Notes under the pieces: generated by a model
The model's database searches: none
What the model saw: the letters and a program-made list of their open reading frames with translations, nothing else
Told to the model about the DNA's origin: nothing
DNA from: Aeromicrobium sp. Leaf350
GTDB taxonomy: Bacteria; Actinomycetota; Actinomycetes; Propionibacteriales; Nocardioidaceae
Direction of reading: 5' to 3'
DNA length: 64,000 nt
Assembly: GCF_916858655.1 (NCBI RefSeq)
Contig: NZ_CAKASL010000002.1
Coordinates: forward strand, 372,001-436,000
In this document: positions 26,849-60,517 of the stretch, piece after piece
Position numbering within the stretch: the stretch's first letter is position 1
Layout of the letters: every line of letters starts with the position of its first letter
Made by a program: the position numbers and the translations under genes

Positions 26849-26926
26849 GCCGCCGACGCTACGACCGCCCACCGACAACCCACCACCCTCGGCTCACCGC
26901 CCAGCGGGGGCGGGAGGGCTCAGCGA

Positions 26927-43076: not shown

Positions 43077-43820
43077 TCACACCCGACGCAGGACCGCGGT
43101 GACCTTGCCGAGGATCGTGGCGTGGGTGCCGTCGATGGGGGAGTACTCCTGGTTGGCGGGCAGCAGCCAGACCTCGCCGTTCTTGCGCTGGAAGGTCTTG
43201 ACCGTGGCCTCGCCGTCGAGCATCGCGGCCACGATCTCGCCGTTCTCGGCGACGGGCTGCTGACGGATGACGACGTAGTCGCCGTCGCAGATCGCGACGT
43301 CGATCATGGAGTCGCCGCTGACCTCGAGCAGGAACAGGGTGCCGTCGCCGACGAGCGACTTGGGCAGGGGGAAGACGTCCTCCACCCGCTCCTCGGCGAG
43401 GATCGGCCCACCGGCGGCGATGCGGCCGACCATCGGCACATAGGTGGCGGTGGGCAACGAGTCGCGGATGCCGGTCTCGTCGACCACGGTCTCGTCGGCC
43501 GAGCTGACCGCGGGGCTGACGGCCGGGCGTGCGCCGATGCCGTCGGGCAGGAAGATCTCCATCGCGCGGGGGCGGAACGGATCGCGCCGGATGTAGCCCA
43601 TCTTCTCGAGCTGCTTGAGCTGGTGGGAGACCGACGACGTGCTGTGCAGACCGACTGCGGCACCGACCTCGCGCATGCTCGGCGGGTAGCCCCGCTGGGC
43701 CACCTCGTCGCGCAGGAACTCCAGGACGCGACGCTGACGCGCGGTCAGTCCGTCGGCGTCGGGCGGTCCGTCAGGCAGCTCACTGACGTTGGAGAGTTCG
43801 TCGGTGTCCTCGGTGCTCAT
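43077..43820 (-). CDS. lexA: LexA repressor
   Basis: SOS regulator, self-cleaved with RecA. The 247-residue product has an N-terminal winged helix ([28 protein letters not shown] region, residues ~29-60), an Ala-Gly cleavage site in GRIAAGGPI, the catalytic Ser in EVSGDSMID and Lys in GEATVKTF, followed by [19 protein letters not shown] 43820 has TAGCGT six bases upstream (minus 43832-43827), so its mRNA is probably leaderless. A LexA box at 43852-43867 lies in the upstream region, giving autoregulation. Confidence 0.97.
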
Positions 43821-43851
43821 GGGGCAACGCTAGGACAGATGTTCGACGAGA

Positions 43852-43867
43852 TCAAACATCTGTTCGA
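43852..43867. promoter_or_regulatory. LexA (SOS) box of lexA
   Basis: TCAAACATCTGTTCGA at 43852-43867 matches the actinobacterial SOS box TCGAACnnnnGTTCGA with one mismatch. It is 20 bases upstream of the lexA -10 and begins in the stop codon of yihY. A GTTCGA half-site also occurs at 43841-43846. Confidence 0.85.
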
Positions 43868-44754
43868 GTGGGCGTGTCGGCGACGGCGTCCCGCTGGAGC
43901 TCGCGCTCGAGGGAGTCGGCCTCGGCGTCGCGCGGACGCTCGCCCTCGCCGACGGCCTCGTAGGAGGCGCCGATGAGGAGGGCGAAGAACCCGGCCCACA
44001 GCCACAGGAGCAGCACGACCACGCCGGCGAGCGCGCCGTAGGTCTTGCCGTAGCTGCCGAAGTTGTCGACGTACAGCGAGAAGCCGACCGAGGCGATGAG
44101 CCACGCGACGGCCGCACCGGTGACGCCCGGCGACCACAGCTTGGGCTTCTCCTGGCCCGACTCGGCGTCCGGCGCGCTGCGGATCACCAGGCCGAACCCG
44201 AGCACGATCGCCACGGCCAGCAGGAGGAAGCGTCCGACGTCCAGGAGCACGCGGGTGCCCGGGACGTCGATCAGGCTGTCGAGGATCGGGGGAGCGACGG
44301 CGACGAGGGTCACCGTGACGGCGAGGAACACTCCGGCGCCGACGGTCAGGCCCAGGGCGAGGAGCTTCTGCTTGAGGAAGTTGCGGGTCTGCAGGTTGCC
44401 GAGCATCGCGTTGATCGCGGTGACGAGGTTGGCCATGCCGCCGCTGGCGCTGTAGACGGCGAGCACGACGGCGATGAGGAATCCGATGCTGAGCGAGCTC
44501 GACGACGTCTGAGCCAGCGACTCGAGCTGGCCGGTGATGACCGAGGCGGCGTCCGCGGGCAGGGCGTCGGCGATGCTGTCGGACTGTCGCGCCACGGTCT
44601 CGGGACTGACCACCAGGCCGTACGTGAGCAGGCCGGCGATCATCGCGGGGAAGAGGGCCAGGAAGACGTAGAACGCCACCCCGGCCGCCAGCAGCGAGGC
44701 GTTGCGTTCGGACGCGAGCTTCCAGGCGGTCTTCAGGCGAGTGACGGCGGACAT
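43852..44754 (-). CDS. YihY/BrkB family membrane protein
   Basis: A 300-residue integral membrane protein of the YihY family (formerly annotated RNase BN). About six hydrophobic segments are visible, including AAGVAFYVFLALFPAMIAGLLTYG, SLSIGFLIAVVLAVYSASGGM, VGAGVFLAVTVTLVAVAPPIL and LAGVVVLLLWLWAGFFALLIGASYEAV. The N-terminal LKTAWKLASERNAS and the ASGGMANLVTAIN motif are typical. The start is ATG 44754 (MSAVTRLK), not the longer frame. Its stop codon lies in the LexA box. The role is unknown. Confidence 0.88.
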   Translation of the reverse strand: MSAVTRLKTAWKLASERNASLLAAGVAFYVFLALFPAMIAGLLTYGLVVSPETVARQSDSIADALPADAASVITGQLESLAQTSSSSLSIGFLIAVVLAVYSASGGMANLVTAINAMLGNLQTRNFLKQKLLALGLTVGAGVFLAVTVTLVAVAPPILDSLIDVPGTRVLLDVGRFLLLAVAIVLGFGLVIRSAPDAESGQEKPKLWSPGVTGAAVAWLIASVGFSLYVDNFGSYGKTYGALAGVVVLLLWLWAGFFALLIGASYEAVGEGERPRDAEADSLERELQRDAVADTPTRTDV

Positions 44755-45077
44755 GTCTTCGACCCTAGGCGGGAGTTCCGCGCCGCGCCTCTCGGCGGTC
44801 GCCACGGCTCTGTTCGACGCGCGATCGGCCGCTTCTGGCATGTGCCACAGGTCACAGTCGCCCCATTTGCCCAGGTCAGAGGCTTCTCGAGCAATCGTTC
44901 GCAAATTTGTTCGAATCAGGTCTTCACTTTTGTCCGACCCTGCCCGTATGGTCGTTCATGTGTTCGATCGAACGTCCGTTCGCACCAACCCCCGATCGAA
45001 TGACATCCCTCGGCTGAGGCCCGAGCGGACGTTCGAGAGAACACACCAACTTCCTCCTCTTCCCCACGGAGACCACC
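44755..45077. promoter_or_regulatory. Divergent yihY/LysM control region with several LexA-box-like sites
   Basis: No gene is visible in these 323 bases. A TTCACT (44923-44928) to TATGGT (44947-44952) pair with 18-base spacing could drive the LysM gene. Four sites resemble the SOS box TCGAACnnnnGTTCGA: 44887-44902 (two mismatches), 44899-44914 (two), 44968-44983 (one) and 45021-45036 (two). The third is the best and sits just after the predicted start of transcription. Confidence 0.75.
44968..44983. promoter_or_regulatory. Primary LexA box upstream of LysM gene
   Basis: TCGAACGTCCGTTCGC differs from the consensus dyad only at the last base. Placed 95 bases before ATG 45078 and just downstream of a likely -10, it should repress the LysM gene until SOS induction. 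Confidence 0.8.
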
Positions 45078-45527
45078 ATGAGCATCACCCACGACGAGCT
45101 TCCGCTGATCGACCTCGCGCCGTACTCCCGCGGCACCGAGGAGGCCCGCGACCGTCACCTCGCTCTGGTCCCGCACACCGCGGTCCCGGGCCGCACGGCG
45201 CGCGCGCCGCGTCCCGCGACGACGGGCGGCCTGCGCCTCACGCGCCGCGGTCGGGTGCTGCTCACGGTGCTCGCGCTCCTCGTCGTCACGGCGCTCATGG
45301 TCGTGTTCGGCTCGGGCACTGCCGCCACGAGCGACGCCGCCGAGATCACCGGCACCACCACCATCACGGTGCAGCCGGGGCAGACCCTGTGGTCGATCGC
45401 CGGCGAGGCCAACCCGGGCGGCGACGTCCGCGACACGATGGACGACATCGTCCAGCTGAACTCGCTCGTCAAGGGCGAGACGCTCCAGATGGGCACGCAG
45501 CTCGCCCTTCCGGTGTACGCCGACTGA
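45078..45527 (+). CDS. LysM-domain protein, probable SOS-induced cell-division suppressor
   Basis: A 149-residue protein: a soluble N-terminal ~55 residues, one transmembrane helix (RLTRRGRVLLTVLALLVVTALMV, about residues 55-77), then a LysM domain TITVQPGQTLWSIAGEAN...LQMGTQLALPV. This layout, the neighbouring lexA and the LexA boxes match ChiZ/DivS/YneA-type proteins that delay division after DNA damage. The LysM would bind septal peptidoglycan outside the membrane. Function in this organism is inferred from context. It is the last SOS gene before the accessory insert. Confidence 0.85.
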   Translation: MSITHDELPLIDLAPYSRGTEEARDRHLALVPHTAVPGRTARAPRPATTGGLRLTRRGRVLLTVLALLVVTALMVVFGSGTAATSDAAEITGTTTITVQPGQTLWSIAGEANPGGDVRDTMDDIVQLNSLVKGETLQMGTQLALPVYAD

Positions 45528-59695: not shown

Positions 59696-60517
59696 ATGCG
59701 CCAGTACTCGATCGCGGATCTCGAGTCCCGCCTGAAGCCGAGCCCACGGATGCCCGTGCTCTTCGTCGGCCACGGCAACCCGATGCACGCGATCAGCGAC
59801 AACGCCTTCACGCGGGAGTGGAGCCGGATCGGCGCGAACCTTCCCGAGGCGCAGGCCATCGTCGTCATCAGCGCGCACTGGCTGACACCGGGCTCGACGC
59901 ACATCACCGACGCGCCGCGCAACAAGGTCATCTACGACTTCGGCGGGTTCCCGGACGCGCTGTCGCAGGTGCCGTACCCGAGCGAGGGCGACCCGCTCGT
60001 CGCCCGTGCGATCCAGCAGCAGTTCCTCGACTACGAGGCGCAGCTCGACGCGCAATGGGGTCTCGACCACGGGACCTGGTCGGTGCTCGTGCACCTCGAG
60101 CCCGAGCCGACCGTCCCGATCCTGCAGATCAGCCTCGACTACGCGATGCCGCTGCCGGAGCTGCACGCGATGTTCGCTCGTCTGCGCGCGCTGCGCGACC
60201 GCGGTGTGCTGTTCATCGGCAGCGGCAACATCGTCCACGCGCTCGGCCGAGCCCGGTGGGAGCCGCAGGCGCAGGCCTGGGACTGGGCCGCCGAGTTCGA
60301 CCGCGTGACGGGCGAGGCCCTGCGCGAGCGCCGGGTCGACCAGCTGCTCGATCCGTTCCGCACGTGGGACACGGCGCGCATCGCCGTGCCCACCGACGAC
60401 CACTACCGCCCGATGGTGGCGGCGCTGTCGCTGCTCGACCCCGATGAGGACCTGTCGTTCTTCAACGAGCAGATCGACATGGGATCGATCGGCATGCGGT
60501 CGTTCCTGACGGTCTGA
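59696..60517 (+). CDS. YgiD-type extradiol dioxygenase (DODA family)
   Basis: A LigB-superfamily class III extradiol dioxygenase like YgiD, which acts on DOPA to give betalamic acid. The 273-residue protein has VLFVGHGNPMHA, AIVVISAHWLTPG (metal-ligand His), HGTWSVLVHLEP and ISLDYAMPLPELHAMF, all DODA/YgiD segments. The frame opens at ATG 59639, but ATG 59696 (MRQYSIADL) is preferred because YgiD proteins are ~270 residues and start just before this point. Its physiological catechol substrate is unknown. It abuts the convergent thioredoxin gene. Confidence 0.88.
   Translation: MRQYSIADLESRLKPSPRMPVLFVGHGNPMHAISDNAFTREWSRIGANLPEAQAIVVISAHWLTPGSTHITDAPRNKVIYDFGGFPDALSQVPYPSEGDPLVARAIQQQFLDYEAQLDAQWGLDHGTWSVLVHLEPEPTVPILQISLDYAMPLPELHAMFARLRALRDRGVLFIGSGNIVHALGRARWEPQAQAWDWAAEFDRVTGEALRERRVDQLLDPFRTWDTARIAVPTDDHYRPMVAALSLLDPDEDLSFFNEQIDMGSIGMRSFLTV

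Follow-up and report, generated by a model that had tools for sequence, protein, structure and literature searches.

The promoter of a YneA/ChiZ-like LysM gene in Aeromicrobium sp. Leaf350 is likely controlled by two DNA damage pathways, LexA and PafBC, that converge on one transcription start site. Three LexA-type boxes (A, B, and C) that are conserved in the genus lie in front of this gene, and between A and B we observe a PafBC-type promoter element, overlooked in the initial annotation, whose -10 hexamer runs into box B. The genome encodes lexA and pafC as well as a pafB-like gene. The earlier reading of the region as a cluster of four LexA boxes is revised: the set of relevant sites changes, and a probable second damage input joins them.

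Locus and LysM protein

The window, i.e., the whole 64,000-nucleotide stretch that was analyzed (C2:372001-436000), is part of a 3.5-Mb genome in three contigs, and several Aeromicrobium genomes are among the nearest relatives of its LexA. The lexA gene (43077-43820, minus strand) contains the Pfam domains LexA_DNA_bind and Peptidase_S24 and yields the single LexA_DNA_bind match of the whole genome in a Pfam profile search. Upstream of lexA and on the same strand is a BrkB-family gene with a likely start at 44754, followed by an intergenic region and the LysM gene (45078-45527, plus strand), for which a match was found in all 37 genus genomes. The translation of its 149-aa product shows one hydrophobic segment, and a LysM domain lies in the C-terminal part at residues 96 to 145 (Pfam LysM, 26.4 bits; cutoff, 20.9); the protein thus shares the build of YneA, ChiZ, and DivS: short, with one membrane segment and an extracellular LysM domain. 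The best NCBIfam match of the protein is the YneA equivalog NF010723, at 35.4 bits and below the cutoff of 60, and for this reason we say that it works like YneA and not that it is YneA. The protein is probably a division suppressor.

LexA-type boxes of the LysM promoter

Matches to the LexA box consensus TCGAACNNNNGTTCGA are abundant in this DNA. At up to three mismatches the window contains 91 (shuffled sequences: mean, 33.1; largest, 47), and at up to two mismatches the genome contains 455, against 190 for the pattern read backward, so that a lone two-mismatch match is weak evidence. The initial annotation had listed four 16-mers in front of the LysM gene, at 44887-44902, 44899-44914, 44968-44983, and 45021-45036. 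All of them are present, with 2, 2, 1, and 2 mismatches, respectively, and the first two do overlap by four bases; the same search returns a further two-mismatch site, 44952-44967, that was absent from the list. Three-mismatch matches at 44964 and 44984 were ruled out as boxes, with matrix scores of 0.6 and 1.0.

The scoring matrix was built from 42 boxes, all from promoters other than that of the LysM gene, and made symmetric. The training set was chosen by hand: 23 boxes belong to recA genes of the genus and 16 to lexA genes (15 of the 60 listed loci), and the other 3 are own-genome sites, picked from 15 with at most one mismatch because an ORF follows these 3. The two boxes of lexA itself, 43852-43867 (28.6) and 43831-43846 (18.7), rank first and second among the 63,985 window positions under a matrix that holds relatives’ boxes of the same form, including those of locus L032, whose two boxes are equal to them. 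Most of the 60 listed lexA loci share the form of the 43852 box, TCGAACN4GTTTGA, and that of the 43831 box is found among them only in L032 and L033; there is an overlap between the 43852 box and the end of the BrkB gene.

Next in rank are two abutting sites, box C (44968-44983, TCGAACGTCCGTTCGC; rank 3) and box B (44952-44967, TCGTTCATGTGTTCGA; rank 4), with scores of 15.1 each. Box A (44899-44914, TCGCAAATTTGTTCGA), upstream of the promoter core, scores 13.4 (rank 6), and a match in a coding region at 60336 falls between them (14.2, rank 5). The other two sites listed earlier rank well below 44899 and 44968, with 9.8 (rank 13) for 45021-45036 and 5.6 (rank 32) for 44887-44902. Order-2 Markov sequence (2 Mb) equaled or exceeded these scores 9 times each for 44968 and 44952, 18 times for 44899, 82 times for 45021, and 371 times for 44887. 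The coding match at 60336 reaches the level of A, so that the decision on which sites are boxes has to come from conservation and not from scores by themselves.

Conservation was assessed in the LysM promoters of 37 genus genomes (loci L112-L141 and L187-L193), with L033, L034, L035, and L039 left out of the counts because their contigs match those of L115, L116, L122, and L123 in length and position. The abutting B-C pair, fused to a TANNNT hexamer, is kept in 37/37 genomes, and its pattern occurs only once in the own genome at zero mismatches. Box A, at up to two mismatches and 50 to 53 bp upstream of B, is kept in 35/37, and none was found in any of the 37 when the scan was moved to 70 to 77 bp upstream of B. 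Counterparts of 44887 (within 6 bp) or 45021 (within 25 bp) at up to two mismatches appear in one genome of the 37, the window’s own, and both sites were rejected as LexA boxes on their low scores together with this private occurrence, which leaves 44899 and 44968 as the two supported sites of the initial list. Boxes A, B, and C resemble TCGAACNNNNGTTCGA and are conserved in relatives, as is typical of actinobacterial LexA promoters, and we infer that these are the sites at which LexA binds the LysM promoter. Box A was also considered as a site serving the divergent BrkB gene and rejected, since the distance from lexA to B ranges from 133 to 2,473 bp while that from A to B stays at 50 to 53 bp.

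These data support the initial annotation insofar as it saw a promoter with multiple LexA-type boxes before a LysM gene close to lexA. The specific arrangement proposed there, with four boxes, 44968 as the primary site tuned by the others, and cooperative repression giving a steep SOS response, is hardly credible now. Its four matches exist, but two of them are low scoring and private to this genome, and box B, which was overlooked, scores the same as 44968 and overlaps the -10 element. Cooperativity and a steep response also do not follow from clustering, because the spacing from B to C is 16 bp, or about 1.5 helical turns. LexA dimers on the two boxes could lie on roughly opposite faces of the helix, each binding independently.

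A different regulator, for example of the ArsR family, might instead use the 12-bp palindrome GTTCGATCGAAC at the junction of B and C as its operator, in which case B and C would not be two LexA boxes. The inner halves of B and C, which form this palindrome, are the best conserved, with a mean of 6.0 and 5.9 of 6 consensus bases kept in the genus promoters, and ArsR motifs resembling the SOS box are mentioned in PMC8151990. However, the outer halves, at LexA spacing, are also conserved (4.7/6 for B and 5.0/6 for C), which argues for two whole LexA boxes rather than a lone central palindrome, and both boxes stand high in the ranking of a matrix trained on promoters other than this one. We regard such an operator as very improbable.

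PafBC-type element and -10 element

The element TTGTCCGAC (44930-44938, plus strand) is followed, after 8 nt, by the -10 element TATGGT (44947-44952, plus strand), whose last T doubles as base 1 of box B; the whole TTGTCCGAC-N8-TATGGT arrangement spans 44930-44952, between A and B. In mycobacteria, the consensus of LexA/RecA-independent promoters is given as tTGTCRgtg, 8 nt, and TannnT (PMC5656591), and this promoter type, RecA-NDp, is described as the target of PafBC (PMC6789036). As a candidate -26 element of this type, TTGTCCGAC has the TTGTC core and the G, with the -10 element at the exact spacing, and it departs from the consensus at the R and the last two bases. TGTC is found at this fixed position in 37/37 genus promoters and TGTCNG in 36/37, the remaining one being without the G.

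The motif is rare in the genome. TTGTCNG-N10-TANNNT has six matches in the 3.5 Mb of the own genome and none for the reversed control, and across 41 genus genomes the counts are 211 and 44. Each of the six own-genome motifs precedes an ORF by no more than about 150 nt, and the products are a SMODS (CBASS-type) protein, a DUF222 protein, an alpha/beta hydrolase fold protein, the LysM protein, a PD-(D/E)XK nuclease domain protein, and EgtB. The match before the hydrolase is also in the window (26856-26878, minus strand), about 30 nt from the ATG of the ORF, and is a possible second PafBC target. The match at L142 (G000:C1, 1305345-1305367, minus strand) is just upstream of the CBASS-type SMODS-domain nucleotidyltransferase, whose NCBIfam CBASS cyclase match is below the cutoff; a defense gene may thus be under DNA damage control at this locus.

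The proteins expected to use this element are encoded in one stretch of the genome, where a Pup-ligase gene is accompanied by a gene with WYL and WCX domains in the place of pafB and by an HTH_PafC-WYL-WCX gene. The HTH_PafC match reaches 119.6 bits (cutoff, 32), which identifies PafC. The WYL/WCX gene is called pafB-like here, a name taken from gene order and domains, with no PafB-specific model matched.

It is also conceivable, though unlikely in our view, that LexA is the sole damage regulator of a simple SOS promoter, with TTGTC...TANNNT serving as an ordinary core that needs no PafBC. The clear LexA-type boxes at the LysM promoter fit this idea. Against it stand the fixed position of TGTCNG in nearly all of the genus promoters and the rarity of the motif in the genome (6 matches versus 0 reversed), and a TTG -35 element at 16 to 18 bp is seen in only 4/37.

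Several observations weigh against dual control: taken together, the matrix scores of the three boxes do not exceed that of the one coding match, one genus promoter of 37 is without the G of TGTCNG and two are without a good box A, TTGTCCGAC deviates from the mycobacterial consensus, and the LysM protein stays below the YneA cutoff. In addition, no PafBC-type motif was found within 450 bp of recA, the classical joint target, in 23 genus loci, and among same-order loci one recA, at L156, has such an element.

Proposed mechanism

PafBC is described as acting by sigma adaptation, inserting between promoter DNA and sigma domain 4 and contacting the -26 motif, with single-stranded DNA as its activator (PMC11804915). 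On this model, PafBC would recruit RNA polymerase carrying the housekeeping sigma factor via TTGTCCGAC and the TATGGT -10 element, and the LysM promoter would be a sigma-adapted one without a canonical -35 element. Transcription is predicted to start at about 44958-44960. A start 6 to 8 nt past the -10 element would center B on the start site, with C then covering about +10 to +25.

In undamaged cells, LexA dimers on B and C would lie over the -10 element, the start site, and the initial part of the transcribed region, with a third dimer on box A just upstream, and this putative occlusion would keep the LysM gene silent. Upon damage, single-stranded DNA would load RecA and lead to LexA self-cleavage; the same single-stranded DNA would activate PafBC, such that block and recruitment shift together. 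Single-stranded DNA is the signal for either input, and the promoter may therefore require a change in both.

Nocardioides-type relatives

Among 80 lexA loci, 50 have an abutting pair up to 3.5 kb upstream and 30 do not, some of the latter being incomplete. The fused TANNNT and the abutting B-C pair are seen in 33/33 LysM loci of Nocardioides type, and box A in 29/33. In place of the PafBC-type element, these relatives carry an additional LexA box, X, 19 bp upstream of B (33/33 loci versus 0/37 in the genus); TGTC at the PafBC position is found in 0/33 versus 37/37, and a TTG -35 element at 16 to 18 bp in 28/33 versus 4/37. At other places from -40 to -8, TGTC is present in 4 of the 33. Sister bacteria, then, seem to carry an extra repressor site where the PafBC element would be. 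With their extra LexA box and without TGTC at the PafBC position, these 33 relatives indicate that the LysM gene can dispense with PafBC, and together with their mostly present -35 element they are the other argument for LexA as the sole regulator, which for the Aeromicrobium promoter we still consider less probable than dual control.

The list of 33 X-type loci was assembled by eye and then recounted. Seventeen loci with a LysM-profile match and without an abutting pair at the criterion used were dropped before counting (L041, L045, L059, L074, L105-L111, L194-L197, L199, and L200). Neither class includes L090, L096, and L098 or the same-order loci L198 and L201-L206, which have retained the pair but not the fused TANNNT. 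Outside the 37 genus promoters, the PafBC-type element is also present in L083 and L084, shifted by 2 bp in the latter. A LexA-like abutting pair with other flanks is seen upstream of lexA in the Sphaerisporangium-type loci L092-L095, L098, L103, and L104.

A scan of 393 sampled genomes of the class recovered the PafBC composite (up to one mismatch) from 17 genomes, comprising 12/12 of the own genus, 2/2 of the neighboring genus g11, and a single genome from each of three further families, all three with one mismatch. The X composite was recovered from 18 genomes (17/19 of genus g9 and 1/1 of g12) and from 0/12 of the own genus, 0/2 of g10, and 0/2 of g11. No genome of the 393 contained both, and reversed controls gave 0. 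In all 23 composite loci outside the own genus, a LysM-profile match follows downstream on the same strand, and lexA lies within 3 kb in 19 of the 23; this proximity of lexA to further pair-bearing loci is another point against a non-LexA operator at the B-C junction.

PafB homologues were found in 11/11 Nocardioides-type genomes searched, and the PafBC-type motif is in excess in Nocardioides-type genomes as well (36 versus 6). In a quick LexA tree, in which 26 of 53 inner branches are open, the PafBC-type rows around the window, 11 in all, group together (SH-aLRT, 96), and at least two changes are needed to account for the PafBC and X states. We tentatively suggest, as a possibility short of even odds, that a fixed slot of the promoter has switched between two damage sensors, holding a PafBC element in Aeromicrobium-type and a fourth LexA box in Nocardioides-type genomes, and that the PafBC form acts as an AND gate. 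If so, the promoter in its PafBC form would block division only when LexA is cleaved and PafBC is active. A title-level literature search, with subscription journals mostly outside its coverage, returned no report of PafBC elements and LexA boxes replacing one another and no study of this region in Aeromicrobium or Nocardioides.

Comparison with known systems

ChiZ (Rv2719c) and DivS are described as damage-induced division suppressors (PMC3989709), and joint LexA/PafBC control of such a suppressor is already known from Rv2719c of Mycobacterium tuberculosis, so the promoter in the window would be a further case of a known type of control. In the account given in PMC8151990, the M. tuberculosis lexA region has four SOS boxes, three of which act, together with a PafBC motif, on the divergent operon rather than on lexA; the genes of this operon are printed there as Rv2019c-Rv2017c, yet the title of Figure S6 names rv2719c. 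With three of the four boxes on the Rv2719c side, the statement of the initial annotation that ChiZ/DivS/YneA-type genes next to lexA usually carry one or two boxes fails for M. tuberculosis (PMC8151990). The likeness to the window, a LysM-type suppressor near lexA with several SOS boxes and a PafBC motif on the suppressor’s side, is one of gene type and motif content drawn from that published description. The window differs in having a BrkB-family gene between lexA and the promoter.

The M. smegmatis recA gene is likewise under joint LexA and PafBC control, but through the separate promoters P1 and P2 (PMC5656591), whereas in the window one core is overlaid by LexA boxes. Several boxes per promoter, with differing LexA affinities, are also reported for the Streptomyces venezuelae LexA regulon (two at lexA and at least three at dnaE2; PMC9380542). 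That regulon differs in that no PafBC motif is claimed in the description given in PMC9380542, which does not mention chiZ, divS, or LysM. The lexA/LysM promoters of Nocardioides type share the fused TANNNT, B and C, and mostly A, and differ in box X, in having no TGTC at the PafBC place, and mostly in having a TTG -35 element. The less expected part of our results is this apparent fourth LexA box where the PafBC element would be. Natural variants with either a PafBC slot or an extra LexA box, on the same -10 element and B-C pair, offer a clean system in which to ask what joint control is worth over control by LexA alone.

Leader sequence

Downstream of the predicted start, the 5' leader contains a block, TCGAATGACATC (44996-45007), that is largely conserved across the 37 genus genomes. 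Its ATG is not in a constant frame to the LysM gene and in the window would open a frame of five codons. The conserved leader ATGACAT was rejected as the true start codon of the LysM gene, given the varying frame and the GGAG that precedes the later ATG. Beside the LysM start, CTTCCCC and GGAG (45063-45073) are conserved, and the pair could form a small hairpin over the ribosome site.
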